The notes under the pieces: generated by a model
Databases searched by the model: none
What the model saw: only the letters and a program-made list of their open reading frames with translations
Told to the model about the DNA's origin: nothing
Position numbers and translations under genes: made by a program
Assembly: GCA_013177855.1 (NCBI GenBank)
Contig: JABLYA010000003.1
Span: forward strand, 1 to 64,000
Source of the DNA: Ignavibacteria bacterium
GTDB taxonomy: Bacteria; Bacteroidota; Ignavibacteria; Ch128b
Direction: 5' to 3'
DNA length: 64,000 nt
Part shown: piece by piece, positions 4,876 through 33,394 of the stretch
How positions within the stretch are numbered: the first letter of the stretch is position 1
How the letters are laid out: each line of letters starts with the position of its first letter

Positions 4876-6716
4876 TAAAAACCTACAAAGTAAATTTAAA
4901 ACACTTTAAAGAGACCACATTAGATGAGATACATGAAAAAATAAGCAAGATGTCATTTGTATCAATAGATACTGAGACAGAAGGATTTTTCGATTTTAAG
5001 AATAAGATAATTTTATTACAGATAGGTAATAAAGATTATCAATTTGTAATAAACTATAAGAATTTAGATTTTTCAGAGATAAACATTATAAAAGATATAT
5101 TAAAAGAAAAAGTTTTAATTTTTCATAATTCAAAATTTGATTTAAAGTTTTTGTATAATGAAAAATTTGATATAAGATATAACAACATAATAGACACTTT
5201 CATATTAGAATCTTTATTAATAGCTGGTGATGAGAATAAGTATAAATTAAGTTTAAAGGAGGTAGCAAAAAAATATTTAGATATAGATTTAGACAAGACA
5301 ATAAGGGGTAAAATTCACAAAGGAATAGACAAAAGTGTAATAGAATATGCTGCTAATGACATAAAACATTTAGAAGACATAGCTAAAGCTCAATTAAAAA
5401 TCATAAGAAAGTACAACATGCATGAATTAAGCAAATTAGAATGTAAGTTATCAGGAGTTTTAGCTAAAATGGAATTAAATGGTATAAAACTAGACACAAA
5501 CAAATGGTTATCTATTTATGATGAAACTTCAAAAAAAGTAAAAGAATTAGAAGATAAGTTAGATGAAGTATTATTAAAGCAAAAATTAAAAGAATTAGAT
5601 ATTTATAAAGCAGTTCAATTAGATTTATTTGATAATAATAGAAATACAATAGTCAACTGGTCATCGAATCCAATAAAATTAGACATATTAAATAAATTAG
5701 GATTAAAAGTATCAAATGTAAGCAATAGTACATTAGTAAAGATAAAAAACGAACATGAAATAATTCCATTATTATTAGAGTACAATAAACAAAAGAAAAT
5801 AGCGACAACATACGGTTTAAATTTCATAAGTTACATTAATCCTATAACAAATAGAGTACATACAAATTTTTGGCAAATATTATCAACAGGTAGGATGAGT
5901 AGTAGTGATCCATCTTTATTAAATATACCTACACATGGTGAATTAGCTACTAAAATAAAAAACAGTTTTATAGCTGAGGAAGGGTATACATTAATAGACA
6001 CGGACTATTCTTCAATGGAATTAAGGATATTAGCTGATTTATCAAAAGATCCACTATGGTTAGATATTTATAAAAAAGATTTAGATTTACATTCCATTTT
6101 ATGTAGTGAAACCTTTGGTATACCAATAGAAAATGTAAAGGATCCATATCCAAACAAACCAGAATTTAATTATAGACATATTCAAAAAACATTAAATTTT
6201 GGGTTAGCTTATGGAATGTCAAAGTACAAACTATCTGAGATATTAGATATAAGTGTAGAAGAAGCTGAAGAGATTATAAATAAGTTTTTCAGTAAAGTAC
6301 CAAAAGTAAAAGAATTCATAGAAAAATCTGGTGAATTTGGTAAGATACATGGATATTCAAAAACACCTCCACCATATAATAGGAGAAGGTTTTTTGATAA
6401 TTTTTATAATCAGATAGAAGATGTTTCAAAGTTATCAGAGATTGAGAGAGCATCTAAGAATCATCCAATTCAAGGAGCTAATGCTGATATAACAAAGACA
6501 GCATTAATAATGATACAAGAAGAGATAGATAAGAAAGATTTACCAATGAAACTATTATTATCTATTCATGATGCTACATTAGTAGAAGCAAAAGACGAAT
6601 ATTTAGATGAATGTATAGAGATAGTACAAAGAAATATGATAGTTTCTGCTAAGATGGTATTAAAAAATGTAGAGCCAAAAGTAGAAACAGTTACTGGAAA
6701 ATACTGGAAACATTAA
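4872..6716 (+). CDS. polA: Family A DNA polymerase with 3'-5' exonuclease
   Basis: The replicative DNA polymerase (614 aa). The N-terminal DnaQ-like proofreading domain shows ExoI D33-x-E35, a HNSKFD motif II, and ExoIII Y-x3-D in YAANDIKHL. The polymerase domain carries motif A DTDYSSMELR (376-385, catalytic D378), motif B RHIQKTLNFGLAYG (R435, K439, F443) and motif C IHDA (H566-D567). Length fits phage PolA enzymes without a 5'-3' exonuclease domain. It is coupled to the upstream small gene by a 4-base overlap and followed 15 bases later by the next gene. Crassvirales use either family A or family B polymerases; this lineage uses A. Confidence 0.97.
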   Translation: MIKTYKVNLKHFKETTLDEIHEKISKMSFVSIDTETEGFFDFKNKIILLQIGNKDYQFVINYKNLDFSEINIIKDILKEKVLIFHNSKFDLKFLYNEKFDIRYNNIIDTFILESLLIAGDENKYKLSLKEVAKKYLDIDLDKTIRGKIHKGIDKSVIEYAANDIKHLEDIAKAQLKIIRKYNMHELSKLECKLSGVLAKMELNGIKLDTNKWLSIYDETSKKVKELEDKLDEVLLKQKLKELDIYKAVQLDLFDNNRNTIVNWSSNPIKLDILNKLGLKVSNVSNSTLVKIKNEHEIIPLLLEYNKQKKIATTYGLNFISYINPITNRVHTNFWQILSTGRMSSSDPSLLNIPTHGELATKIKNSFIAEEGYTLIDTDYSSMELRILADLSKDPLWLDIYKKDLDLHSILCSETFGIPIENVKDPYPNKPEFNYRHIQKTLNFGLAYGMSKYKLSEILDISVEEAEEIINKFFSKVPKVKEFIEKSGEFGKIHGYSKTPPPYNRRRFFDNFYNQIEDVSKLSEIERASKNHPIQGANADITKTALIMIQEEIDKKDLPMKLLLSIHDATLVEAKDEYLDECIEIVQRNMIVSAKMVLKNVEPKVETVTGKYWKH

Positions 6717-6731
6717 CTAAAATAAACTACT

Positions 6732-7349
6732 ATGGAAATAACAATTCCTTTAGAAAAAAAATTAAAGTATAATTTAGATTTAGAGCACTTAGTATTGTTA
6801 TCTATATTAGTAGATAATAATAAACTAAATTTAAAATTGTTTGACAATTATTTAACTTACCATTATAATAGGGCAAAATACATAAATTTAGTAATGGATT
6901 TAGAAAGTTTAAATTTAGTGAAGATTATAGGAGACTTATATGATGATGATTTAAATCCATTATTAAGCTCGATCTTAGTAAGAGCAGAAGGTTTAAAAAT
7001 ATTTCAAGATCAATTAGAAGCTACAAAGATTGAAGAATTAGCTAAAGAGTTAAGAGATTTATTTCCAAGTGGAATAAAATCTGGAGGTTATTATGTTAAA
7101 GGAAATTTAAAAGATATAAAATATAAGTTAGTTAAATTTATAAAGAAATATCCAAAGTACGATAAAGATATAATAATAAAGGCCACAAAAAATTATATAG
7201 ATAGGAAAAGAGCTGAAAATTGGAATATGATAAAAACCATAGAAAATTTCATATTAAAAGATAATACGTCTGTTTTAGCTTCAGAATGTGAAAATTTATT
7301 AGAAAACGGGGATGAACCTGATGATTTATGGATGAGAAACATAGTTTAA
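6732..7349 (+). CDS. Unknown replication-module protein, helicase-loader candidate (205 aa)
   Basis: A helical protein of 205 aa between the polymerase and the DnaB-like ATPase, whose start it overlaps by 22 bases. The N-terminal part resembles a winged helix-turn-helix (leucine-rich, VMDLESLNLVKI). The C-terminal part (YPKYDKDIIIKATKNYI, then WNMIKTIENFI) has the style of phage replisome organiser or helicase loader tails. That role is inferred from position and general appearance, without a diagnostic motif. Confidence 0.7.
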   Translation: MEITIPLEKKLKYNLDLEHLVLLSILVDNNKLNLKLFDNYLTYHYNRAKYINLVMDLESLNLVKIIGDLYDDDLNPLLSSILVRAEGLKIFQDQLEATKIEELAKELRDLFPSGIKSGGYYVKGNLKDIKYKLVKFIKKYPKYDKDIIIKATKNYIDRKRAENWNMIKTIENFILKDNTSVLASECENLLENGDEPDDLWMRNIV

Positions 7350-8446
7350 TCTTTGACAGTGTTTATAGAAATTTAGTTACAAACAAAAAACTAAAAGAGG
7401 AAGGCAAAGATTTAGTAATACCATGTCCATTCAGTAGATTAAGTAAAGAATGGCCAGGTATTCAACAGGGCAAATATTACTTAATAAGTAGTACACAAAA
7501 AGTAGGTAAAACACAAATAACAGATTTTGTATTTGTGTTTAATCCTATAAATTTTGTACTAGATAATGAAACCAACATAAAGTTAAAAATATTTGACTTC
7601 AATTTAGAAATGAATAAAGAAGCCAAATATAAACAATTGATGGTACATAGGTATTATTTAAAAACGGGAAACATTTTAAATGTAAGACAATTAGAAAGTA
7701 TTTACAAAGATTACATTTTACCTGATAAAGTATTAAGATTTATAGAAAAAGAAAGAGATTGGTTTGAAAAATTTGAAAACATAGTAGAGTATATTGATGA
7801 CATAAGAAATGTTTTTGGTATTTACAAAAGAATAAAAAACTTTTTTGAATCCAATGGTAGATATGAATATAAGACTATTACAATAACAGAAGACAATAAA
7901 ACTAAAGAAATAAAAGTAATAGATAGATATATACCTAATGATCCAAATTTATTTGTGATCATCAAAGTAGATAATATTAATTTAATAACACCAGAAAGGG
8001 GGAGTACGTTATATGAAGACATAGGCAAATTCAGTAGTGAATACATGGTACATGCAAGAAACAGATGGAATGCTATTCCAGTAATAATCCAACAACAAGC
8101 CTTACAAAAAGAAGGTAATGATTCAATAAGAATGGGAAGAACTAGACCTTCAGCAGATGGATTAGCTGATAATAAATCCACATCAAAAGATTGTGATGTA
8201 TTTATGGGAATTTATTCTCCATATAGAGTTGGAGAAAGGTCTTATTTAAATTATGATATAACAAAGTTAAAGGATCACTATAGGAATTTTTATATTGATT
8301 TTGATAGAAATGGTAATTCATGTGAAACAAGTTTGTATTTTCATGGAGCTGTTAATTATTTTAGAGAGCTTCCAAGTGCAAGTAAGTTAACTCCAGAAAT
8401 GTATAATAATATTCACAATTTAGCAAAACCCAAACAAAACTTTTAA
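7328..8446 (+). CDS. DnaB-like replicative helicase ATPase
   Basis: A RecA-fold ATPase of 372 aa that probably unwinds the replication fork. It has a P-loop STQKVGKTQ near residue 55, a Walker B-like strand VIIKVDNINLI, and the downstream polar strand IPVIIQQQALQKE typical of DnaB helicases before the DNA-binding loops (GLADNKSTSKDCD). The first glycine of the canonical P-loop is replaced, which is unusual. The DnaB N-terminal domain is missing, as in many crAss-like homologues. It overlaps the preceding gene and follows PolA, consistent with a fork helicase. Confidence 0.85.
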   Translation: MDEKHSLIFDSVYRNLVTNKKLKEEGKDLVIPCPFSRLSKEWPGIQQGKYYLISSTQKVGKTQITDFVFVFNPINFVLDNETNIKLKIFDFNLEMNKEAKYKQLMVHRYYLKTGNILNVRQLESIYKDYILPDKVLRFIEKERDWFEKFENIVEYIDDIRNVFGIYKRIKNFFESNGRYEYKTITITEDNKTKEIKVIDRYIPNDPNLFVIIKVDNINLITPERGSTLYEDIGKFSSEYMVHARNRWNAIPVIIQQQALQKEGNDSIRMGRTRPSADGLADNKSTSKDCDVFMGIYSPYRVGERSYLNYDITKLKDHYRNFYIDFDRNGNSCETSLYFHGAVNYFRELPSASKLTPEMYNNIHNLAKPKQNF

Positions 8447-8457
8447 AAACAAAAACT

Positions 8458-9045
8458 ATGAGAACTATTAAAGTTAAAACTCAAGAAGTAAGACAAGTGC
8501 TTACAGTTAACACAACAGCTATGACTGTTGAAGAATTAAAGAAAGAGTTAGAAAGTCAGTTCAATTTAAATTTAAACAATGCAGGATTTATAGATTACGA
8601 AACAGAGACGATGTTTGTAACTAATAACAGTAGATTGCCAAACAAAGATTGTATTTTATTGGTAGTACCTTTGAAGACAAGTTTAGGAGCGAAGAGTTTT
8701 AAACTAAAATGTGTAGAAAATAAGAATGGTGTACAAATCAAATACAGTATAGAAGAAGACACTTTAGATGATGCTTATGCCAAACTAAAATCAACAATGT
8801 ATGAATCATCACAAATAAAAGAAAACACAAATGATTATGTAATGACTGTGACTGTAAAAGACTTAGAAGATAAAGTGAATAAAATAATGGATGAATTAAA
8901 AAATAACGTCACTACTACAGTAAACACATATTCAGATTGTGATAGTAATCAACCTAATGAACCTAGTTACAGCAAAGCTGATTATAATGAGGATGTTGAT
9001 GATCTTGAAGATGATATTGATGATGATGATGATTCTTATTTATGA
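8458..9045 (+). CDS. Ubiquitin-like (beta-grasp) protein precursor
   Basis: Residues 1-77 read as a ubiquitin-like fold: two opening strands (RTIKVKTQEVRQVLTV), a helix after MTVEELKKEL, then later strands ending in DCILLVVPLKTSLG. That end matches the VP/TPKK-x-x-G C-terminus of prokaryotic ubiquitin-like proteins found next to JAB and E1 genes. G77 is therefore the likely mature C-terminus, with residues 78-195 as a pro-extension or second domain. The extension ends in a very acidic tail (DVDDLEDDIDDDDDSYL). The E2-like, JAB and E1 genes follow in order. The fold call rests on pattern and context, not on a search. Confidence 0.6.
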   Translation: MRTIKVKTQEVRQVLTVNTTAMTVEELKKELESQFNLNLNNAGFIDYETETMFVTNNSRLPNKDCILLVVPLKTSLGAKSFKLKCVENKNGVQIKYSIEEDTLDDAYAKLKSTMYESSQIKENTNDYVMTVTVKDLEDKVNKIMDELKNNVTTTVNTYSDCDSNQPNEPSYSKADYNEDVDDLEDDIDDDDDSYL

Positions 9046-9078
9046 TCGTGATGATTATGAATATAATCCAGACCATAA

Positions 9079-9111
9079 ATTAAATATAGATTAAATATAG
9101 GTTAAATAGTA
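9079..9111 (+). repeat. 11-bp direct repeats before a terminator
   Basis: ATTAAATATAG occurs at 9079-9089 and 9090-9100, followed by a degenerate third unit (9101-9111). The spacing is one helical turn, as for a protein-binding site. The repeats lie between the ubiquitin-like gene and its terminator. Confidence 0.5.
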
Positions 9112-9142
9112 AAGGAGGGATGTAATTAATCCCTCCTTTTTT
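9111..9142 (+). terminator. Rho-independent terminator
   Basis: AAAGGAGGGAT (9111-9121) pairs perfectly with ATCCCTCCTTT (9129-9139), and the arm extends into six T's. It separates the ubiquitin-like gene from the E2-like gene, so the latter needs its own promoter or read-through. Confidence 0.85.
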
Positions 9143-9166
9143 GTTTATTTTAAAAAATAATTAGCT

Positions 9167-11269
9167 ATGAACATTAAAATATTAAAAGAAAACAAAGAGG
9201 ATCTTTATGTAAAAACTATATTTTTTAAAACTGACGATATAATAAGAGGATTAGTTGATAAAAGTTTATTTAAAGATGCAGATTCAGATGAATACATAAA
9301 TAATTTCATTAATAATAATGAATTTACTACTACATTAAAAAATATTATTAGTGATTTATTTATGGATGAATTTGATAAAACTATATCCAATATAAATAGA
9401 GATACTAAATCTATACAATTTCTAAAATTAATAACAACATTAAATGCGTTTAAAAAGATTATGTATTTATGCATTAAAAATGTAGTAGATTATGACTTTA
9501 ATATAATAATAAATTTAGAAGAATATTTAATTAAACAAAATAGTGATGAAGATATTACATTATATGATGAAGAATTTAAAGAATTAGAATCAAGGTATAA
9601 TACTTTATTTCCTATCCCTATATTAGGGGGTAACTTATGGTTAAGTTTATTGGATGATATTTCACATTATATAAGACACAAGAATTTAATATTTAATTCA
9701 TTAATTAAAAGCGATAAATTAGTAATACAAGAATTAAAAAAAGTTTTAGATTCTAAATTAGGAAAAGAAGCTTTAGTTTTTGCATCTGAAGATGAAAAAG
9801 TTTTAATTTATAAAATAGATACTTTAACTATAGTAGATGTAGATTCAAATAGTATAGATTTAAATAAATTCAATGATTTTAAAGATTTAAATTCTATAAA
9901 AGAAGGTAATTTTATTAGAATAAAGGATATATATATATTAGTATACACAGATATATTTAGCAATTTATATTATGACATTAAAGCGAGAGAAACAAATAAA
10001 TTTAGTTCAGTAGAAATTGTATTCTTTAAAAATAATAAAGGTATTGAATTATTTACTGGTTTAGAGTCACATACCTATATACACCCTCACATGTCTAATT
10101 GTGTTTATAAAGTATTTAATAATCTAAGTGGATTTTGTTTAAATAAGTATAACTATATAAAAAATTTAAATATCTTCATAAATAACATAGATGAATTAAA
10201 ACGAAGGATGCATACTATACTAAACTTTTTACATGTAGAAAGTTATTCAGGAGGACAATATATAAAAACAGAAAATCAGATAAATGAATATAAAAATTCA
10301 ATCAAAAAGAAAATTGAAGAGAATTTAAATCAGATCTTAAATGATGGTAATTTCAGTTCTATACAAGATATCTATTCAAATAATGAAACACTTATAATAG
10401 ATTATCTTTTAAATAACATATCTGAAATTGATGAAAATTTGCTTAATATTTTAAATGACAAGTATAACCTTATTTTAAAATCTATAGCAAATTATACAAA
10501 TGAACTAATATCTATATCAACTTATATAGATATTAATAAAAATGTAAATGAATTAAAATCTAATTTAAATTTATTATACTATTTTTTAATATATATTTTA
10601 TATAAGCATAAATTAATACCGTTAAATTTAAAATGGATTCCAAATAAAGATGATAACCCAGATAATTTAACTTATTTTAATGAAACAGTTTTAATAAATA
10701 ATGTATATGATGCACATAATGATAAGTATATAGATTTAGAACAATTAATTAATACAGCAAATGCTATTATAGAAGAGGAATCCAATAAAATGGGTCAAGA
10801 TTTTATAAATACGGTAAAAAATGAAGTACTTAATGAAATTATTACTCCAGTAATTACCAGTATGAACACATTTATATATAATTTAATATGGAGGTATATA
10901 ATAAATAATTCAATAAAAAGTATAGATAATGAGATAGAGGTTGATTTTGACAGTTATAAAAGTAAGTTTTGGGCTAAACCAGTAAATTGGTCAAAAGCTA
11001 TAGATGTATTAAACTCTATAATGGATGAAAGCTATATTACTTCTTTAAGTGACTTTCTAAGTTACAATGATTACATATGTAATAAATCTAATGCTGAAAA
11101 CGTAAGCTTATTTTTATTAGAATCATTACATTCTTATGCTTACAAAAATAGATATTTTATAAGTTTAAAAAAGCAAAATATTTCTAACAAAGAATTTATT
11201 AAATTTAATCCAAAAGAACAATTATTAAAAGCTATTTTACAAGAAAAATTATTAAACATTAAAATTTAA
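9167..11269 (+). CDS. Large protein with an E2-like core (700 aa)
   Basis: A long, helical, Asn/Ile-rich protein. The one recognisable element is YIHPHM at residues 304-309 (H306-P-H308) followed by GFCLN with C324. This resembles the HPH...G-x-C-L signature of prokaryotic E2-like (ubiquitin-conjugating) proteins, where the Cys is the thioester site. It lies between a ubiquitin-like gene and a JAB peptidase, where E2-like genes sit in such operons. The protein is much larger than usual E2s, with helical arms on both sides that might bind substrate. It starts 25 bases after a terminator and is followed 4 bases later by JAB. Without the context the call would be weak. Confidence 0.5.
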   Translation: MNIKILKENKEDLYVKTIFFKTDDIIRGLVDKSLFKDADSDEYINNFINNNEFTTTLKNIISDLFMDEFDKTISNINRDTKSIQFLKLITTLNAFKKIMYLCIKNVVDYDFNIIINLEEYLIKQNSDEDITLYDEEFKELESRYNTLFPIPILGGNLWLSLLDDISHYIRHKNLIFNSLIKSDKLVIQELKKVLDSKLGKEALVFASEDEKVLIYKIDTLTIVDVDSNSIDLNKFNDFKDLNSIKEGNFIRIKDIYILVYTDIFSNLYYDIKARETNKFSSVEIVFFKNNKGIELFTGLESHTYIHPHMSNCVYKVFNNLSGFCLNKYNYIKNLNIFINNIDELKRRMHTILNFLHVESYSGGQYIKTENQINEYKNSIKKKIEENLNQILNDGNFSSIQDIYSNNETLIIDYLLNNISEIDENLLNILNDKYNLILKSIANYTNELISISTYIDINKNVNELKSNLNLLYYFLIYILYKHKLIPLNLKWIPNKDDNPDNLTYFNETVLINNVYDAHNDKYIDLEQLINTANAIIEEESNKMGQDFINTVKNEVLNEIITPVITSMNTFIYNLIWRYIINNSIKSIDNEIEVDFDSYKSKFWAKPVNWSKAIDVLNSIMDESYITSLSDFLSYNDYICNKSNAENVSLFLLESLHSYAYKNRYFISLKKQNISNKEFIKFNPKEQLLKAILQEKLLNIKI

Positions 11270-11273
11270 AACT

Positions 11274-12044
11274 ATGAAAAAGCCAGTAATTAAACTAAAC
11301 AAAAAAGTAGTAAATAAAATTTACATGTTAAACACCGAGTTTCATAATGTAGAATGGTGTGGGATTGTGATTTATAAAATAACAAATGAAAAAAGTATAA
11401 ATCCATTTAATAACATTACAATAGACGTAATTGACATATATCCAACAAGTAAAGGAACATCAGTTACAGTAAATAGAGATGATACTGTATTACCAAAAGT
11501 GTATAAAATTTTTGGTATGGAATGCCTTATAGGTACTATTCATAGTCATAATAATATGGATAGTTTCTTTTCAGAAACTGATGTAAATGATATAAAAACA
11601 AATGTTGGTTTATATAGTCAATACTTAAGTATTGTAGTAAATAATAAAATGGATATAAAAGCTAAAATAGCTTTCAATACTATAAAAAGAATAAAAATTA
11701 AAGAGTTTATAAAGGATTTAAACGGTAAAATACATAAACAATACAAAAATGAATTAAAAAAGGATGCACATATTATTGATTTAGAAGTAAAAATGGAAAC
11801 TACACCCGTAGAAGATTGGTTTATCAATGCTATAAATGAAATCAAAACTAAAAGCAATAAAAAAGAAAAAGCATATAAATATAATTATAAAGACTTTTAT
11901 GATAGAACACAAAAAGAAGAAGATAAGGTAAATCCTGCAAATGATTCAACATTTTCAGAGTATTTTAAAACTATAGATCCATATTTTGATAATAACAGTT
12001 ATGATTATCCATATCACAATTATGATTTTGATAATGATTTGTGA
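11274..12044 (+). CDS. JAB/JAMM metallopeptidase (deubiquitinase-like)
   Basis: A zinc-dependent isopeptidase/peptidase of the MPN family (256 aa). The full JAMM signature is present: upstream Glu (E27 in VEWCG), then H90-S-H92, seven residues, S100-x-x-D103 (HSHNNMDSFFSETD). Such enzymes trim ubiquitin-like precursors or remove them from targets. The partner genes for a ubiquitin-like protein, an E2-like protein and an E1-like enzyme are in the same operon. The C-terminal third is charged and ends in a Tyr/Asp-rich tail. The stop codon TGA (12042-12044) touches the boundary of the inserted TnpB element, so the last residues may have been altered by the insertion. Confidence 0.9.
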   Translation: MKKPVIKLNKKVVNKIYMLNTEFHNVEWCGIVIYKITNEKSINPFNNITIDVIDIYPTSKGTSVTVNRDDTVLPKVYKIFGMECLIGTIHSHNNMDSFFSETDVNDIKTNVGLYSQYLSIVVNNKMDIKAKIAFNTIKRIKIKEFIKDLNGKIHKQYKNELKKDAHIIDLEVKMETTPVEDWFINAINEIKTKSNKKEKAYKYNYKDFYDRTQKEEDKVNPANDSTFSEYFKTIDPYFDNNSYDYPYHNYDFDNDL

Positions 12045-12125
12045 ACTACCCACCCACGCCAGAGGCGATGGGTTGGGCTTCAGGAGTCATCACTCCAACT
12101 AATGTTGGCAGTTCGTCCTGATTTT
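12045..12125 (-). ncRNA. Candidate omega RNA (TnpB guide RNA scaffold)
   Basis: TnpB nucleases of this family use an RNA made from the 3' end of tnpB across the right end of the element. Here the tnpB 3' end folds into a strong hairpin, CCC-CCC-A-CGCC paired with GGCG-T-GGG-T-GGG, directly before the element boundary. The guide would be the flanking phage sequence (the JAB gene 3' end, below 12045). The 5' limit is not visible. Confidence 0.4.
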
Positions 12126-13212
12126 TTAGTCTGTGTTCCCCAGACAAATTAAGAGCAAATGATTTTATGTTACAAGCAGCTAAAATTTCTCTATCGTGTG
12201 TAGTTCCACAAGACTTACAAGTCCACTTTCTGTCGGATAGTTTTAAGCCCTTGTTGATTACTCCACAAGAGCAAGTCTTGGAAGATGGTGCAAATTGTCC
12301 TATACGTAGGATGTTTTTACCATACCATTCGGCTTTATATTCTAACATAGAGACAAAAGTTGACCAACTTACATCACTAATAGATTGTGCTAAGTTGTGG
12401 TTTTTAACCATATTTTTAACTGCTAAAGTTTCAAGTGCTATCGTTTGGTTCTCACGAATTAGTTTAGTTGAAACTTTGTGTAAAAAATCCTTACGTTGGT
12501 TAGTCACTTTTTCGTGTAGTAATGCTAACTTTTGTTTAGTACGCTTACCTTTGTGTTTTGAATATTTACGTTGTATATATTTTAATTTACTTTGTGCTTT
12601 ACGAAGGAATTTAGGATTTTCAAAAACCTCACCTTCTGATGTAACTGCGAAGTCTTTAATTCCTAAGTCGATGCCAATAGTCGTACTTTCGGTTATTGGT
12701 GCTTTAGTTGGTATTTCTTCTTTAGTGTCACAAAGTATAGAAACAAAGTATTTACCAGTAGGTGTAACACTTATGGTTGCACTCTTAATTGTACCCTTAA
12801 TAGGTCGATGTAAAGACATCTTAATACCCTCTTTGAACTTAGGTATTATTAATAAGTTATTCTCAACTTTTACATTCTGTGGAATTGAAAAAGATTGCTT
12901 ACCTTTATGTTTTGATTTGAACTTAGGAAAACCAGCACCCTTAAAAAACTTCTTAAAGGCAATGTCCATATTATGTATAGCTTGCTGTAAACTTTGTGAG
13001 TTTACTTCTTTGAGCCAAGGAAGTTCTTTTTTAAGTTCTGGTAATTGTTTAATTAAATCAAAAGCAGAATAGTTATGTTTAGAACCTAAATATGCAGTTG
13101 TTTTTGTTTCTAAGGCTAAATTATACACAAAACGACTACTACCAATATGTTTGGCAATAAGTTCTTTTTGTGGCTCTGTTGGATACAGACGATATTTAAA
13201 CGCTCGAAACAT
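12046..13212 (-). CDS. tnpB: TnpB RNA-guided nuclease (IS200/IS605 OrfB)
   Basis: A TnpB protein of 388 aa. I choose the ATG at 13212 (MFRAFKYRLYPT, the usual TnpB opening) because the -7 promoter box lies just upstream, at 13218-13225. The RuvC catalytic triad is intact: D182 in GIDLG, E261 in ALETL and D340 in HDREILAACNIK. The zinc finger CSCG...CKSCG lies between E261 and D340. TnpB cuts DNA under omega RNA guidance and helps keep the element at its site. Its orientation is opposite to the flanking phage genes, and it has a complete Bacteroidetes promoter, so it is expressed independently. It appears functional. Confidence 0.93.
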   Translation of the reverse strand: MFRAFKYRLYPTEPQKELIAKHIGSSRFVYNLALETKTTAYLGSKHNYSAFDLIKQLPELKKELPWLKEVNSQSLQQAIHNMDIAFKKFFKGAGFPKFKSKHKGKQSFSIPQNVKVENNLLIIPKFKEGIKMSLHRPIKGTIKSATISVTPTGKYFVSILCDTKEEIPTKAPITESTTIGIDLGIKDFAVTSEGEVFENPKFLRKAQSKLKYIQRKYSKHKGKRTKQKLALLHEKVTNQRKDFLHKVSTKLIRENQTIALETLAVKNMVKNHNLAQSISDVSWSTFVSMLEYKAEWYGKNILRIGQFAPSSKTCSCGVINKGLKLSDRKWTCKSCGTTHDREILAACNIKSFALNLSGEHRLKNQDELPTLVGVMTPEAQPIASGVGG

Positions 13213-13217
13213 TAATG

Positions 13218-13248
13218 CAAATTTATACAAATTTATTGAATTGTCAAA
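13218..13248 (-). promoter_or_regulatory. Bacteroidetes sigma-70-type promoter of tnpB
   Basis: On the - strand a -33 TTTG (13245-13248) is followed after exactly 19 bases by TAAATTTG (13218-13225), matching the TTTG-N19-TAnnTTTG consensus of Bacteroidetes. The -7 box ends five bases before the chosen ATG, so the transcript would be leaderless or nearly so. Confidence 0.75.
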
Positions 13249-13268
13249 ATATTATTTAACATTTCAAA

Positions 13269-13297
13269 ATGTAAGCGTAAAGGAGTGTCGCTTACAT
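13269..13297 (-). terminator. 9-bp hairpin at the HNH gene end
   Basis: ATGTAAGCG (13269-13277) pairs with CGCTTACAT (13289-13297). It contains the stop codon of the HNH gene and precedes tnpB on the - strand. It may be a terminator or a structural end of the tnpB unit. Confidence 0.5.
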
Positions 13298-13837
13298 CCC
13301 ATCCACGTAACTTTGTTTTAATGTGTTCACTATTTTAGTACAAATTTCTAATAATTCTTCTTGTGTACACGCTCTTTTAAACCAATTTGCTCTACTTGTT
13401 ACCCATTGCACATTAGACAACTCATCTTTACCTTTTCTATATTTAGGCAAAATATGGTCAAGTTCTATATCATCATTGAAAGAAATATTATCACCTGTTA
13501 AAGCACATTTATAATTTTGTTTTTCAATTAATGATTTTAACTCTTTCCAATATTTAGAAGAACCTAATCGTGTATGAGATATTTTCATTAGATAATGTTT
13601 CTCGCAGTAGTTTTTGTTGTTTAGTGTTTCTTTTCCACATTGACAACACAAACTTTTTTCTTTCCATTCGTTGTATTTTTTCTTTCTGTTTTCTGCACGT
13701 CTTCTATTACAAGAATTACATCTTAATCCAGTTGCAGGATTAGAACACTCAATACAAAGCCCTTTTGATTTTTGTTCTTCTTGCCACTTACGAACACGCT
13801 CTATGTTTTTTACATCTTTTATACTGCAAATATACAA
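13292..13837 (-). CDS. HNH endonuclease with zinc ribbons
   Basis: A DNA nuclease of 181 aa, probably a homing-type or mobile-element passenger. The N-terminal half carries two treble-clef/zinc-ribbon Cys sets (CIECSNPATGLRCNSC and CCQCGKETLNNKNYC). The C-terminal half has a beta-beta-alpha-metal core with CALTGD, ELDHILPKYRKGKDELSN and a final NWFKRA, where Asn replaces the usual His. The start is unresolved: the only candidate is a TTG at 13837 that overlaps the promoter -7 box, and no in-frame ATG follows before residue 83. It may be 5'-truncated or use an unusual start. It has no homology to the flanking operon. Confidence 0.8.
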   Translation of the reverse strand: MYICSIKDVKNIERVRKWQEEQKSKGLCIECSNPATGLRCNSCNRRRAENRKKKYNEWKEKSLCCQCGKETLNNKNYCEKHYLMKISHTRLGSSKYWKELKSLIEKQNYKCALTGDNISFNDDIELDHILPKYRKGKDELSNVQWVTSRANWFKRACTQEELLEICTKIVNTLKQSYVDGM

Positions 13838-13857
13838 TAAAATAATTAAACCACAAA
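13827..13857 (-). promoter_or_regulatory. Bacteroidetes-type promoter of the HNH gene
   Basis: A -33 TTTG (13854-13857) and -7 TATATTTG (13827-13834) are separated by exactly 19 bases on the - strand, the same layout as the tnpB promoter. A transcript starting about 7 bases downstream would begin inside the annotated reading frame. Confidence 0.7.
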
Positions 13858-13927
13858 ATATATTTTTATAGATGTACGCTAAAACGATGGATGGGTTTTG
13901 TGCTCCATATTATAAAAATAATAAACT

Positions 13928-14623
13928 ATGGAATTAAAATTAGAAGATATAAACAAAAATTTCAGAGGTTTAGCTTATTATAACAGTAATAAAATGGAAA
14001 ATATCCTAATAGGTGGATGTGGTGGTATAGGTAGTAATACAGCATTTAATATTTCAAGAAGTATTAACTGTAATTTATTTTTGGTAGATTTTGATACAGT
14101 AGAACCACATAACATAGGATCACAATTTTATACATTAAATAGTGTAGGTAAAACTAAAACTGAAGAACTAAGTTCAATATTAAAAGATTTTACCTTATCA
14201 CAAATAATTCCTATCACTACTGATATTAAATTTCTACTTACAGTACCACCAATAGTTATAGCTGCTTTTGATAATATTAAAGCTAGAAGAATATTATTTA
14301 AAAAGTGGAGGGAAGTAAAAGATAGAGAAATATTTATAGATGGAAGATTACAAGCTACTTATTATGAAATGTACTGTGTAATGCCAGAACAGGAAGATTT
14401 CTATGAAGAAACACTATATGATGATTCAAAAGATGCAAAAATAGCTTGTACAGTAAAACAAACAAGTCATTTTGGACAATTATTAGGAGCTAGAATTACA
14501 CAAGCTTTAACTAATTACCTAACCAATAAAAATTTAGGTATTGATATTAATAAAATTCCTTTTTGTGTAAAAGAATATGGAGATTTATTTAAAATTGATG
14601 TTACATGGAAACCTACCAAATAG
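13928..14623 (+). CDS. ThiF/E1-like adenylyltransferase
   Basis: An E1-like enzyme of 231 aa that would adenylate the C-terminus of a ubiquitin-like protein. The N-terminal Rossmann ATP site is GGCGGIGS (29-36), followed by the acidic strand LFLVDFDTVEPHNIGSQ (D54, D56, N62, Q66) and the AAFDNIKARR loop. A conserved-looking cysteine in IACTVKQTSHFG (C174) is a candidate thioester site. It lacks the usual Arg after the Asn (NIGSQ instead of NLxRQ). It belongs to the operon of the ubiquitin-like, E2-like and JAB genes but is now separated from JAB by the TnpB unit. The next gene overlaps its end by 19 bases. Confidence 0.88.
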   Translation: MELKLEDINKNFRGLAYYNSNKMENILIGGCGGIGSNTAFNISRSINCNLFLVDFDTVEPHNIGSQFYTLNSVGKTKTEELSSILKDFTLSQIIPITTDIKFLLTVPPIVIAAFDNIKARRILFKKWREVKDREIFIDGRLQATYYEMYCVMPEQEDFYEETLYDDSKDAKIACTVKQTSHFGQLLGARITQALTNYLTNKNLGIDINKIPFCVKEYGDLFKIDVTWKPTK

Positions 14624-15498
14624 TAAATTACAAATTAGAAAACTTAAATAAGTATAAAGAACTGCATTCAGAATTTATGAATAATTTACATTTATCACTT
14701 GATAAACATTTTATATTTTCACACAATAAGGTATATTTTCTTATGTCTTTATTAATTACAGTATTACACTTAAAAATAAAAAAAGATGATTACATAAAAA
14801 AACTTTTGGTAAGAATTAATCTTCAAGAAGATATATCATATAAAAGTATACCATCAAATTTAATTAATCAAGTATTAAGAGTAAACTTTAAAGATAAAAA
14901 TGATATTGTAATAGCTATAAACGATGTAATAGTTTGTAATATTTTCAGTCCGATAATACCAATTTACTCAATTATTAATGCATATTTATATAATGTTAAA
15001 AATAAAAATATAGATATGAATACTAATTTAAATAATTTAGTATTTGGTATAAAGTATATATTAAACTATTACAATGACAGATACAACAATGAAGTAAAAG
15101 AACTAAAAACACAGTCATCTGTAGAAATAGCTATAAATAGTCTTAATAAAGAGATTATTAGTAATAGACCATTAATATCTATGTTTTATGCAATTAAAAA
15201 ATATGTAAATAATAACACAAGTAAAAATATAATAGTAAATGCTACACTTTATGATGTAATAGGTATATTTAATTATATACCAGATAAAGGCACCAATGTT
15301 ATTTACATAGATATTGATGATAAAATATTAATAAATGAACCTATTTTTAAACAATACATAGCTTACAATAATTTACATATAGATGATGACACAATTGAAC
15401 TAATGAAAACTTTATTAGTAAAACTTTCACCTAAAAAGCTTACCTTTGTGAACAAAATAAACAAAGCCCAATTTATTAAAGTTAAACCAAAAAACTAA
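14605..15498 (+). CDS. Unknown protein coupled to the E1-like gene (297 aa)
   Basis: A helical, Asn/Ile-rich protein without a motif I recognise. It overlaps the E1-like gene by 19 bases, so it is translated with it and is a candidate accessory factor or target of the ubiquitin-like pathway. The C-terminal region has a possible alpha/beta element (NVIYIDIDDKILINEP). The following gene starts 5 bases after its stop. Confidence 0.65.
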   Translation: METYQIVNYKLENLNKYKELHSEFMNNLHLSLDKHFIFSHNKVYFLMSLLITVLHLKIKKDDYIKKLLVRINLQEDISYKSIPSNLINQVLRVNFKDKNDIVIAINDVIVCNIFSPIIPIYSIINAYLYNVKNKNIDMNTNLNNLVFGIKYILNYYNDRYNNEVKELKTQSSVEIAINSLNKEIISNRPLISMFYAIKKYVNNNTSKNIIVNATLYDVIGIFNYIPDKGTNVIYIDIDDKILINEPIFKQYIAYNNLHIDDDTIELMKTLLVKLSPKKLTFVNKINKAQFIKVKPKN

Positions 15499-28615: not shown

Positions 28616-31600
28616 TCATTCTTCATCATCATCTTCTTCTTTTTCTATAAAAGCTTTCCAATCATCATCAAAATCTCTAACTAAAGCTTCTAAACTTCTT
28701 AAAGGAGCTACAAGTTGTATCCAATATTTTCTAGGTCTTGCAGCTTCTTTTAATTTATCATTATCAAAAGTTTCTCCAATTAACTCTTTAGCTGAATGAG
28801 TTATAGCTTGATATAAAGTAATAACAGGAGCTAAAGTAGCTGTAGGACTTTTTAAAATATTATATAATTCAAATGGGTTAACAAACATCATTAATTCAGC
28901 ATAAGCCCTATTAACAACTCTTAAAGCAAATTTATTGTTATATTTATCTTCGTCATCTCCACCACCTAATTTTAACATTAACAACAATGCTATTACTCCT
29001 AATGTAATAGATAACCCACTTTTTGTAGCATTAATGTTTTCTCTATATAAATCTATAAATTCATCTAAACTTATCTTTTGAGCTAACTCTGGATCTCTAG
29101 ATACTAACTCAATATATTTCATTTTAGCTGAATCTTCTATACCCATAAATAATACAAATCTTAACTTATTACTTTCATCTCTCATAAATCCAAATAATTT
29201 ATGAAAGAAAGTTCTATATCTACCCAATTCAAATTTTTCAAGATTAGGATTGTATCTTAAATTTCCATAACGTTCATCAACTAAACGTGGTATAAAGTTT
29301 CTAAATAAGAACAAAGCTCGAATAAAAGCATTATTTCTATATTTTATAAAATCATTCTGATCATAGTTACCAATTATATTTTTAGTTATTTGCTTAACCA
29401 ATTCTCTAAAAGCTATAATAGTGTCTTCACTAAGTTCTTCATGTCCTTCTATTACAAATTTTCCATTTTTGATAGTACCTAAATCGTAAACACTTTTAAT
29501 ACTTTTTCTCTTCTCTTCAAGTTCTTTATCTATTTTTTTACGTTCTTCTTTAGATAAAGAATAATAATTTTTAGGTCTAAGAGATTTTAAATATGTAGAT
29601 ATTAAAACTATTTTACCAGATTCATCAAACATGCTATTTTGTAATACAGCTAATAATATATTATCTTGCATTAATTCATCTGGTTTTCTCAACATAAAAT
29701 ATAGCGGATCAAGACTTAAATTTCTAGTAAGTATAGTTGATTTTATCTTTCTATTTTTCTTTTCTATTCTTTGGTCTAATCTACTATTAAATAATGTTAT
29801 AAATCCTCTAGCTTTTAAACCTTCTGTATTATGTGTTAAGGATCCACCTGTTAATGCCCAAAATCCCTTTTTTAATTGTTTTCTTGTGAAAAAGATATTT
29901 CTACTAGCTTGTACATTTAATCCAACAACATTGGATACTGTAGCAGCTATAGCAGGGAATATATTTAATCCTAATAACATAACAGATGCAGCTTTATTCA
30001 TAGTATTTATAACACCAGCTGCTCTAGGTACTTCTTCTTTAATATTATAGACATAGTAATTTATCATATCTTCCAATAAATCTGTAATCTGCCTATTAGC
30101 TTTTTCACTTTCAATAGGTTGACCAGTCATTGGATTTATTTTAACTTTTCCAGTAAATTTAGATACTTCGATTGTTGGTTGATTCTTTGCTATATCTAAT
30201 AAAGCTAAAGCATTACTCTCAATAGCAGCCATTTCTCTATGATAAAATGAAGTTTCACCAAAAAGTTGTAGTACAAATCCTAAATCATAAGATTTCAATT
30301 TTGGATCTAGTTGCCTTACAAAAAAGATAGGAATTTGTTTTTTAGTTCCATTTTGTGAATCTGTAATATCAGATATTAACATATCATTTTCATTAAATAA
30401 TAGGCTTTTAGCTCTATCTCCAGCTATTTCAATATACGATTTATTAGGAGTACCTAATTTCTCAATTATATTTTTTTCAACATTAGGGATAAAGTTTTCT
30501 TTATATCCAAAATCAGGTAACCAACTAGATAATTCTTTAGTAGTTTTAGTAAAAAACTCATAAAATCTTAACAACCCTTCATTACCAGGTTTATTTAATT
30601 CAATCCATTCTTGAGAATGCCATTGTTTTTCTACTTCTGGTTTTATCTTTAAGTGAAATGTAGTTAATGGATTTCTTTGTTTTTCCTCATATTCTTTTAT
30701 TTTTTGAGCTTTAATCTTTTCATTTAATATTGGATCTTTGTGATATAAAACTTTTTCTATATTTTTTTTAAATCTATTTATATCGTCTTCAACAGCTTTT
30801 TGGTCTATATACATATTAGCATTTATCCACTTAATATCACCTGTCTCTTTAGCTTTTTTTAAGCTATTCCAAAAATCTTTTGAATACTTACTAATTAACG
30901 TACCTGTATTTTTATTTATTATCATATCATAGGCTTGTTGTAAAGATAATCCTTTAGATCCAGCCCATACTTTTAATGCATTTACTTCATTTAAAATACT
31001 TTCTCTTAATTTATTAGAGTCTGTTTCTACTTTGTATAATGCTTTTTTTACTAGTTCATGAAATATTCTTATAACAGGGACGTTCATTTGGCTAATAGAC
31101 CTAAAAGTTCTTTCTAAAAATCCCAATGCTTTTTGAGGTTTATTAAAATCGGTTATGTTTAATTCTTCAGCTTGTTGTTCTATTCTTTGCTTTTTTATAT
31201 TTTTTATTCTATCAGATAATTGAGAAGCTTCAGATAAAACCTCATTTATAATTAATCTATCATCTTCAGATAGTTCTTTACTATTATTGGATATAAATAT
31301 AAATACATCTTTATAAATATCTATAATTTCTTCAATCTCATTTAATGTGTCAAATGTTAATTCTTTATTAGAATTTAATGTATCATATATATTTTGTATA
31401 TCCTTAATTGCCAGATTTGCAGTTATAGTTACATTTCTTCTTATATATAATTGAATAATAGCATCTTTTAAAGCTTTTAAACGTTCATAATATTTTTCTC
31501 TTTCTGCTACATCGGTTGGTTTTTTCCTATTTATAAGGTCAAAAAATTTAAGGTTAAGTTCTTCAATTTTTCTATCTATAATTTCACTACCAGTTTTTTC

Positions 31601-33394
31601 TCCAGCTACAGGTAGTTGTCCTACAACATGGAGATCTGTTACAGTTCCTGATTTTTCAGTAGAGACATTTATTCTTACAAGTCTAGTTCTTTTTATACCT
31701 CTAACAGGTGGAATGTTATATAAAGCGTTACCTTTAGTTAAAATATTTTTATATAATGCTACTTGTACAGAATTTTTATAAAAAGCATTTAATCCTATAC
31801 TAGACAAATCTGCTCCAGAGCTAATAGTCTTAAAGTCATATATACTAGCAGTTCCATCACTATGAATAACTAACATATCAATAGTACCAGCTAACCCTTT
31901 TTTATTATTACCTTTATCATCTTTATAAACAAAATTCGGATCATATACAGATACTTCACTTAATATAACAGCTCCTGGATCTTCCTCTTTTATTTTATTT
32001 ATCATAGCTGTTAAATAATTTTTTAACTTAAGGTACTGTTGAGCTTCTTCTTTACTTAAACTTTTGTATAAAGCTGTTTCTGATGTATCATTATTAACAA
32101 TAGATTTAATAATATCATTAGCCCAACTATGTACTTTATTTCCCCTTTTTTGAGCTTGTTCTATTAATTCTTTTTCTTTAATAGATAAATTATCTTGGTA
32201 TTTTCTTGATTTATCTAGTACACTACTTGGAGTACCAGTAACTTTTATTTCTGAATTACCTTTTCTAATCTTATAAAAATGTTCACCATTTTCATTTACA
32301 CTTTCTATATTATTTTGAAATTTATTAATACCATCTACAATAGAACTCTGTGTAGACATATTTTCTTTTTGGAGCATTTCATAGGTATCTTCTGGAAAGA
32401 CTAAATTATATTTTTTTGTCTTATTAGATAATATATCATTTGCAAGAGATTTATATAAATTATCTTTTACAAATTTATTATGGCTATATATTAAATTAGA
32501 AAATCCAGATAATCCTATAACATCCAAAGCTTTGTTTATTAAAGATTTTATATATGTTAAAACATTGTGTAATATAGAATTATTTTTAGATTCTTTATTA
32601 GTTTTTTGTTCTACAAAAACTTCTACTATATTCTTAGCTAAGAATTTAGCAACAGCTTCTTCTTGTATTCTTTCTATATCTGGAGAACCATCTTCTTTTA
32701 CGTAAACATTTTTATATTCTTCATATACAGATTCATATACACCATTTTTTAATACTATAGAAACTAATTTATCATATAAGATTGGATTATTAGGTTTTAA
32801 CATTCTAATAAAAAAGTGAGAAGCTTCTTCAGGTAGAGTAGTTAAATCAGCTCTTCCTTTAACAACTTCTATAACTTTATTAATAAAATTAGCTTTTGCT
32901 ATAAAATCTCCACCTGGGATCTCTTCTATAGATACTCCTATATTCAATAAAAACTCAGTGATTTTAGCATCTAATTCTTGTATTGGAGCTGTAGCATTTT
33001 TAGCATTTTCTTGTTGCTTCATTTCTTGCTTAAATGGATTAAACATTTTTCCATTTTTAGTAAGATAATATCCACTACCATTAGATGTTTGTTTTACATC
33101 ATAATTTAATCCAGCTTTTTTTATATCATTTTTTAAATTTTCTACTATAATATATTTACTAAAAAATCCAGTTTCAGACATATTATATCTTATAGCTATG
33201 TCTTTTATTGAAGGTTTATTAGCTTCCTTAAATCTATTTGCTGCATTTATAATATAATCCATTGGAGGAAATTCAAAAGTATTATTATTTTCCATCCATG
33301 CTCCAATTATAGATTTAAGTACTGGTACAGGTAATCCTGTAGCTTTTTGAAATTCCATAAATTCTGGTGAGTTTATATTTACACAAAAGCTCAT
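28616..33394 (-). CDS. Large virion (cargo) protein with PD-(D/E)XK-like domain (1592 aa)
   Basis: The last gene of the late operon, read after the RNA polymerase polyprotein. Residues about 390-525 resemble a PD-(D/E)XK nuclease: ILSEVSVYDPN, LAGTIDMLVI (D506) and SIYDFKTIS (D520-x-K522). Near residue 189 EEASHFF has the layout of a zincin helix, but the first His of HExxH is missing. Later parts are coiled and helical with hydrophobic stretches (SVMLLGLNIFPAIAATVSNVV and ITLGVIALLLMLKL), and the tail is acidic. In crAss-like phages, giant proteins at this locus are packaged in the capsid and ejected with the DNA; that role is inferred here. Confidence 0.75.
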   Translation of the reverse strand: MSFCVNINSPEFMEFQKATGLPVPVLKSIIGAWMENNNTFEFPPMDYIINAANRFKEANKPSIKDIAIRYNMSETGFFSKYIIVENLKNDIKKAGLNYDVKQTSNGSGYYLTKNGKMFNPFKQEMKQQENAKNATAPIQELDAKITEFLLNIGVSIEEIPGGDFIAKANFINKVIEVVKGRADLTTLPEEASHFFIRMLKPNNPILYDKLVSIVLKNGVYESVYEEYKNVYVKEDGSPDIERIQEEAVAKFLAKNIVEVFVEQKTNKESKNNSILHNVLTYIKSLINKALDVIGLSGFSNLIYSHNKFVKDNLYKSLANDILSNKTKKYNLVFPEDTYEMLQKENMSTQSSIVDGINKFQNNIESVNENGEHFYKIRKGNSEIKVTGTPSSVLDKSRKYQDNLSIKEKELIEQAQKRGNKVHSWANDIIKSIVNNDTSETALYKSLSKEEAQQYLKLKNYLTAMINKIKEEDPGAVILSEVSVYDPNFVYKDDKGNNKKGLAGTIDMLVIHSDGTASIYDFKTISSGADLSSIGLNAFYKNSVQVALYKNILTKGNALYNIPPVRGIKRTRLVRINVSTEKSGTVTDLHVVGQLPVAGEKTGSEIIDRKIEELNLKFFDLINRKKPTDVAEREKYYERLKALKDAIIQLYIRRNVTITANLAIKDIQNIYDTLNSNKELTFDTLNEIEEIIDIYKDVFIFISNNSKELSEDDRLIINEVLSEASQLSDRIKNIKKQRIEQQAEELNITDFNKPQKALGFLERTFRSISQMNVPVIRIFHELVKKALYKVETDSNKLRESILNEVNALKVWAGSKGLSLQQAYDMIINKNTGTLISKYSKDFWNSLKKAKETGDIKWINANMYIDQKAVEDDINRFKKNIEKVLYHKDPILNEKIKAQKIKEYEEKQRNPLTTFHLKIKPEVEKQWHSQEWIELNKPGNEGLLRFYEFFTKTTKELSSWLPDFGYKENFIPNVEKNIIEKLGTPNKSYIEIAGDRAKSLLFNENDMLISDITDSQNGTKKQIPIFFVRQLDPKLKSYDLGFVLQLFGETSFYHREMAAIESNALALLDIAKNQPTIEVSKFTGKVKINPMTGQPIESEKANRQITDLLEDMINYYVYNIKEEVPRAAGVINTMNKAASVMLLGLNIFPAIAATVSNVVGLNVQASRNIFFTRKQLKKGFWALTGGSLTHNTEGLKARGFITLFNSRLDQRIEKKNRKIKSTILTRNLSLDPLYFMLRKPDELMQDNILLAVLQNSMFDESGKIVLISTYLKSLRPKNYYSLSKEERKKIDKELEEKRKSIKSVYDLGTIKNGKFVIEGHEELSEDTIIAFRELVKQITKNIIGNYDQNDFIKYRNNAFIRALFLFRNFIPRLVDERYGNLRYNPNLEKFELGRYRTFFHKLFGFMRDESNKLRFVLFMGIEDSAKMKYIELVSRDPELAQKISLDEFIDLYRENINATKSGLSITLGVIALLLMLKLGGGDDEDKYNNKFALRVVNRAYAELMMFVNPFELYNILKSPTATLAPVITLYQAITHSAKELIGETFDNDKLKEAARPRKYWIQLVAPLRSLEALVRDFDDDWKAFIEKEEDDDEE

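Follow-up and report, generated by a model that had tools for sequence, protein, structure and literature searches.

Does a crAss-like phage carry a complete ubiquitin-like conjugation pathway, and what would a virus do with one? The question is raised by four plus-strand genes at 8458-14623 of the stretch of DNA analysed here (the window, the first 64 kb of the 86.8-kb contig JABLYA010000003.1 within the 3.66-Mb bacterial assembly GCA_013177855.1). The first of them codes for the precursor of a ubiquitin-like protein (Ubl), the second for an E2-like protein, the third for a JAB/JAMM peptidase and the last for a ThiF/E1 enzyme of one domain. Bacterial ubiquitin-like systems are known as anti-phage weapons, and a complete set kept by phages would, if true, invert that picture. 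The set resembles a pared-down version of the ubiquitin system of our own cells, and the phages that keep it include cultured members of the most abundant virus group of the human gut. Based on the sequence comparisons and models described below, we consider that the four genes probably constitute a phage-specific ubiquitin-like conjugation pathway and are conserved as a block within the replication module.

The locus and its phage

Judged by the crass-type TerL and portal that it encodes, the 86.8-kb contig is a crAss-like phage, as the original prediction had assumed: the TerL shares 43% identity with Suoliviridae and the portal about 36% with Steigviridae, and in a small TerL tree the window phage stands beside Steigviridae (support 100/98). 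Terminal repeats of the 86.8-kb contig were looked for and none were found. The window genes are open under code 11; the TerL genes of two Suoliviridae phages, cr124_1 (L143) and cr4_1 (L151), have eight and six in-frame stops under the same code, as expected from the stop-codon reassignment in such phages. Elsewhere in the window, an ORF of 5414 codons (33407-49651, minus strand) adjoins one of 1592 codons (28616-33394) with an exonuclease-family match. As to the bacterial assembly, its 16S has only ~80% identity to plasmid-borne copies, and its only ThiF-family match is the phage gene, so that the bacterium seems to be without MoeB/ThiF.

All four ORFs were found at the predicted positions and on the predicted strand (Table 1). 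A DnaB-like helicase gene flanks the block on one side. On the other side comes an uncharacterised gene and, after it, a Sak4-like AAA gene; genes for a family A polymerase, a primase-like protein and a PDDEXK protein are also nearby. The gp75 profile of crAss001 gave no match to the gene that follows E1.

Table 1. Features of the four-gene block and the ORFs in and beside it (window coordinates)
Feature	Coordinates	Strand	Length and residues	Basis
Ubl precursor	8458..9045	+	195 aa; beta-grasp residues 1-77 (8458-8688) ending at G77, then 118-aa tail	AlphaFold2, Foldseek, HMM
E2-like protein (candidate)	9167..11269	+	700 aa; core motif Y304-x-H306-P-H308...C324...E358-S359-x-x-G362-x-x-Y365 (10076-10261)	Motif and position
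JAB/JAMM metallopeptidase	11274..12044	+	256 aa; E27, H90, H92, S100, D103	Pfam Prok-JAB
TnpB (OrfB), IS605-family; inserted, outside the pathway	12046..13230	-		Pfam OrfB_IS605 1.9e-25, Cas12f1-like_TNB 2.3e-20
HNH-endonuclease-like ORF; inserted, outside the pathway	13292..13837	-		Pfam HNH_4 1.8e-4, slightly below cut-off
E1/ThiF-like adenylating enzyme	13928..14623	+	231 aa, single domain; putative catalytic C174 (14447-14449)	Pfam ThiF
Gene after E1	14605..15498	+	Overlaps E1 stop	No Pfam match

A ubiquitin-like precursor with an invariant glycine

A beta-grasp fold had been proposed for the product of the first gene, and structure prediction with AlphaFold2, followed by Foldseek, returned that fold. 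The model, made from a 55-row alignment, has a pLDDT of 96-98 over residues 1-70, which drops shortly before G77, and a strand-strand-helix-strand-strand topology; its Foldseek matches are ubiquitin, NEDD8, SUMO, FAT10 and BfUbb, at a target-normalised TM of up to 0.76, and, among viral models, proteins of cr111, cr126, cr106 and Fpv3. The phage Ubls share little pairwise identity, but an HMM from which the window was left out recovers 8458-9045 with E = 6e-11. When the window Ubl and E2 were compared as single sequences with the HMMs of Pfam, PHROGs, NCBIfam and PADLOC, nothing meaningful came up, and the 55 Ubls, scanned individually against Pfam, gave, among the matches listed, only scattered chance ones and no family membership.

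The glycine at which the domain had been predicted to end, G77, proved to be the sole invariant column among the 55 Ubl homologues and lies at the domain C-terminus. What follows it varies: the stop comes one residue after the conserved Gly in three relatives (L049, L050 and L097), three residues after it in L100 and five in L053, while the tails of the others are long and unrelated in sequence (median tail length 135 residues in relatives, 118 in the window). By analogy with pro-ubiquitins, a fixed Gly followed by tails that differ in length and sequence would be the pattern of a processed precursor. Taken from the predicted structure, the identification of this protein as a Ubl is strongly supported.

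The JAB peptidase and the E1 enzyme

The JAB and E1 genes were judged clearly recognizable in the original prediction, and both score above their Pfam cut-offs, the JAB protein with Prok-JAB PF14464 (32.3 bits, cut-off 25) and the E1 with ThiF PF00899 (58.7 bits, cut-off 28.1). HMMs built without the window find the two window proteins with E = 6e-41 and E = 6e-66, respectively. The JAMM residues named in the original prediction (H90, H92, S100 and D103) are invariant in an alignment of the JAB proteins of 11 phages; E27 is conserved and occupies the expected position of the catalytic Glu, and profile comparison links the protein weakly to CSN5 and RPN11-like peptidases.

The E1 retains GxGGIGS, D54, D56, N62, K77 and D115, and C174 is present in 85/85 E1 sequences. 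The Arg of the NxxRQ motif of other E1s is replaced, the phage motif being NxxGQ in 83 of 86 phage E1s, with Ser in the window, and this may indicate an altered ATP site. R11, found in 85 E1s, is Asn in the window E1 alone. The PDB profile matches of the enzyme are MccB, UBA5, UBA6, MoeB, ThiF and, weakly, Cap2. In an E1 tree the phage enzymes group in a clade to themselves (96/95), distinct from the E1s of PRTRC and of giant phages, and the window sequence groups with L022 and L023. A second, separate phage E1-like clade (L021 and L001-L006), for which no Ubl, E2 or JAB was detected, includes 228-kb Xanthomonas phages, where the E1-like gene is preceded by an uncharacterised 892-aa gene and followed by a 70-aa gene.

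An E1 of this kind could also serve a sulfur carrier. The ThiF-like enzyme would then thiocarboxylate G77 of the Ubl, as with ThiS and MoaD, and the sulfur would be handed on to a small molecule or to RNA, with the position-2 protein as partner enzyme and the JAB protein only processing the precursor. The nearest NCBIfam models are indeed ThiS adenylyltransferases, and JAB proteins accompany sulfur-carrier Ubls too (PMC1779556). Nonetheless, the scores all fall far under the ThiF cut-offs, the annotated neighbourhoods showed neither rhodanese, ThiG and ThiI nor any other sulfur gene, and an invariant Cys, as in the position-2 protein, speaks for a thioester relay; we regard this alternative as decidedly improbable. 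The E1 carries no fused rhodanese, nor was a CxxC zinc motif seen in its sequence. The GenBank label 'Thiamine biosynthesis ThiF' was likewise rejected, given the same low scores and the absence of adjacent thi genes.

A candidate E2 in the second position

The second protein was reached by another route, since a direct search with the 700-aa sequence in viral contigs and phages gave no matches and its relatives were found only via the neighbouring E1. An H306-x-H308...C324 motif had been singled out in it, and these residues hold up well: Y304, H306, H308, C324, E358, S359, G362 and Y365 are invariant across 11 phages, and H308, C324 (the putative thioester Cys, encoded at 10136-10138), E358, S359 and G362 across 58 diverged homologues of the E2 candidate. 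A scan of 4386 ORFs with the motif found 68 of the 77 family members and, outside the family, only the position-2 genes of the ten named phages and of the window; the motif was derived from the same proteins, so the scan measures its specificity and is no independent proof. The position-2 proteins vary in length, from ~370 up to 700 aa, and carry lineage-specific additions; that of the window is unusually long and diverged. A full-length E2 HMM built without the window misses 9167-11269, and an HMM of the E2 core gives the window protein a best domain E = 4e-4 among 93 ORFs.

The fold itself was modelled with low confidence. The AlphaFold2 model of the 700-aa protein has a mean pLDDT of 57, low around residues 306-324, and Foldseek gave no match with it. 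The 58 E2 candidates, taken individually against Pfam and NCBIfam, gave scattered chance matches only and no family, and hhalign of the phage E2 against PRTRC_B, Prok-E2_B and Prok-E2_E gave no signal in a comparison in which known-family controls likewise failed to find each other. The poor model, together with the wide range of lengths and the lineage-specific additions, would suit a substrate or scaffold to which the E1 joins the Ubl directly, with no E2 involved. This we consider rather improbable, because a gene that always lies between those for the Ubl and the JAB protein, and whose product has an invariant His and Cys, shows the pattern expected of an E2. The designation of the position-2 protein as an E2 candidate is supported by gene position and by the invariant His/Cys motif in the aligned sequences.

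The four genes travel together in phages

Related E1s occur in named phages of the Steigviridae (such as crAss001, DAC15, cr85, cr111, cr126 and cr128), in other gut phages and in Flavobacterium phages such as FpV4. The order Ubl candidate, E2 candidate, JAB, E1 recurs in all ten named phages that were examined, namely these six Steigviridae, 'frurule', Dulem 41, bajarodcaudo 1 and FpV4; the search of other Crassvirales for this arrangement that the original prediction proposed thus found it in crAss001 and other Steigviridae. Searching IMG/VR with the E1 profile gave 181 relatives, of which 80 loci were fetched. The four genes were detected in 73 of the 80, and in 73/73 their order is identical and all lie on one strand; in the other seven the Ubl or E2 was undetected, in some owing to the contig end. 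Because every complete locus shares order and strand, the grouping, as read from these sequences, is beyond chance.

The block also keeps company with replication genes, in the named phages as in the window. In annotated gut-phage records its neighbours are a DNA primase gene on one side and a uracil-DNA glycosylase gene on the other, and in FpV4 a toprim gene and a glycosylase gene are both immediately upstream. Among 84,980 species genomes, matches were found only in two short MAG contigs, and among 395 genomes of the same phylum a full match was found only in the window's own, three others being weak and partial; in view of this near-absence, the system is essentially viral. Within Crassvirales it is patchy, since the E1 and JAB are absent from the tested Suoliviridae and Intestiviridae records and from phi14:2.

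No description of the four-gene set in phages was found in the open-licence literature, crAss papers included. GenBank records label the genes hypothetical, metalloprotease domain or thiamine biosynthesis protein, and in one case 'E1 enzyme family protein'; the pathway, if true, would give four core genes under such labels a function.

Comparison with known systems

The original prediction likened the gene order to that of PRTRC and of CBASS Cap2/Cap3. The order is instead that of BilABCD, where the four components are likewise encoded separately (Ubl A, E2 B, JAB C, E1 D), and the comparison with PRTRC and CBASS stands as an analogy only, as neither the phage E2 nor, among the matches listed, the Ubl could be placed in a Pfam family, and the E1 and JAB score far short of the PRTRC cut-offs. 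In BilABCD, BilA has two Ubl domains, BilB has a CEHH motif (Cys, Glu at +6, His at +8, His at +13) and BilD combines an inactive with an active adenylation domain (PMC11354881). The phage Ubl, in contrast, has one confident beta-grasp domain plus a tail and no tandem; the phage E2 motif is H-x-H...C...ES..G, in which only E358, S359 and G362 are invariant after C324; the phage E1 is one 231-aa domain; and the phage set is encoded by a virus. Membership of BilABCD is excluded by the one-domain E1, the different E2 motif and the single Ubl domain.

The PRTRC system, which we take to be class 6d of Iyer et al. 2006, is found on plasmids and integrative elements and is the closest in its parts: a small Ubl ending in Gly, an E2-like protein, a JAB and a single-domain ThiF-like E1, with, by eye, a similar 'CMG'/'CLG' around the Cys and 'WE' downstream. 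Class 6d is described in PMC1779556. The phage proteins score 17 bits against the PRTRC A model (cut-off 101.8) and 24.7 bits against the PRTRC ThiF model (cut-off 144.75), and those PRTRC E1s that were fetched keep the NxxRQ Arg, whereas the phage E1s do not. No genes annotated as PRTRC E, F or ParB lie nearby. Membership was rejected on the sub-cut-off E1 and JAB, the lack of a Prok-E2_D match among the 58 phage E2 candidates, and the fact that Prok_Ub is not among the 25 of 71 Pfam matches listed for the 55 Ubls, nor among those for the window Ubl.

CBASS type II shares the E1 adenylation fold and the JAB peptidase. Cap2 is a single E1-E2 fusion that joins the cyclase itself, and CBASS is not known to have a Ubl gene; membership was rejected because E1 and E2 are separate genes here, with no fusion. 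The eukaryotic UBA5-UFC1-UFM1 system and MccB are among the best PDB profile matches of the E1, and mature UFM1 ends in a single Gly; these matches span the nucleotide-binding part only, and the phage E1 is without the Arg. Finally, a phage Ubl together with a JAB is known from the lambda-type tail proteins I and K (PMC1779556). These are without E1 or E2 and lie in tail operons, unlike the present genes in a replication module.

The kinship with defence systems raises the possibility that the phage set acts in counter-defence, tagging host anti-phage proteins or, through its E1, Ubl or JAB, disturbing a host Ubl defence such as CBASS Cap2/Cap3 or Bil. Bacterial Ubl systems do serve anti-phage defence (PMC10097602, PMC11354881), and a virus could reverse the same chemistry. 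That the set is missing from many other crAss-like phages is consistent with such a role. We nevertheless hold it to be unlikely: the genes sit in a conserved replication module and remain linked across very wide divergence, and the E1 scores weakly against the PADLOC E1-E2 and BilD models. Counter-defence genes are usually accessory, which we also count against it.

A proposed conjugation pathway

In the conjugation pathway that we favour, the JAB peptidase would trim the Ubl precursor after G77, and the E1, in which ATP-site residues and a Cys are conserved, would adenylate this glycine and take the Ubl onto C174. The Ubl would then pass to the invariant C324 of the position-2 protein, presumed to have an E2 fold, and be joined to amines of a target protein, from which the JAB protein could take it off. 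Speaking for such a pathway would be, in sequences and models, the Ubl with its invariant Gly, the JAMM motif, the E1 site and Cys, the motif of the E2 candidate and the shared order of the 73 loci; against it we count the low pLDDT of the E2 model, the replaced Arg of NxxRQ, the R11 to Asn change in the window, the TnpB/HNH interruption and the absence of an E3. Cumulatively, there is good support for a pathway of the Ubl-conjugation type in this crAss-like phage, and conservation in many phages adds strength to it. Our findings suggest that something inside the infected bacterium is tagged with a small protein by these viruses.

As to what is tagged, with genes for polymerase, helicase, primase and recombination around the block, the likeliest target would be a protein that replicates or handles DNA, whether the phage's or the host's, and the modification would come early in infection; we offer this tentatively, as a guess. 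The replication genes of crAss-like phages are early or middle genes (PMC10136315), which fits early action and argues against a role in tail assembly. More broadly, we see about an even chance that a large and diverse group of crAss-like and related phages carries a complete, virus-specific Ubl machine for DNA replication or host takeover, one in which the Ubl and E2 families are new and the ATP site of the E1 is altered. If true, crAss001 with Bacteroides intestinalis and DAC15 with B. thetaiotaomicron would provide a tractable model for protein tagging by bacterial viruses.

Insertions in the operon

The four genes had been described as lying in order. Their order was confirmed, but they are not contiguous: the JAB and E1 genes are 1883 bp apart in the window, against a median gap of -11 bp in relatives, with the minus-strand TnpB and HNH ORFs between them. 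The GC content of these two ORFs is 34% and 30%, respectively, compared with 22% for 8458-12044. The insertion (12046-13837) is present in a single copy in the assembly, and no TnpA was seen among the ORFs around it. Together with the Asn at position 11 of the E1, the interruption might be taken to mean that the set is a functionless relic or a chance grouping in the window phage. With all four frames open, every catalytic candidate kept and the order conserved across phages, we find this very improbable.

Gene interruption of another form was observed in five relatives (L067, L068, L074, L079 and L099), in which the JAB or E2 gene is split into two ORFs, some ~1 kb apart. In L074, for example, the JAB gene occupies 7200-7523 and 8703-9554, and in L079 the E2 gene occupies 5832-6257 and 7386-8219. 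Such splits suggest that introns, frameshifts or more than one insertion have affected the operon.
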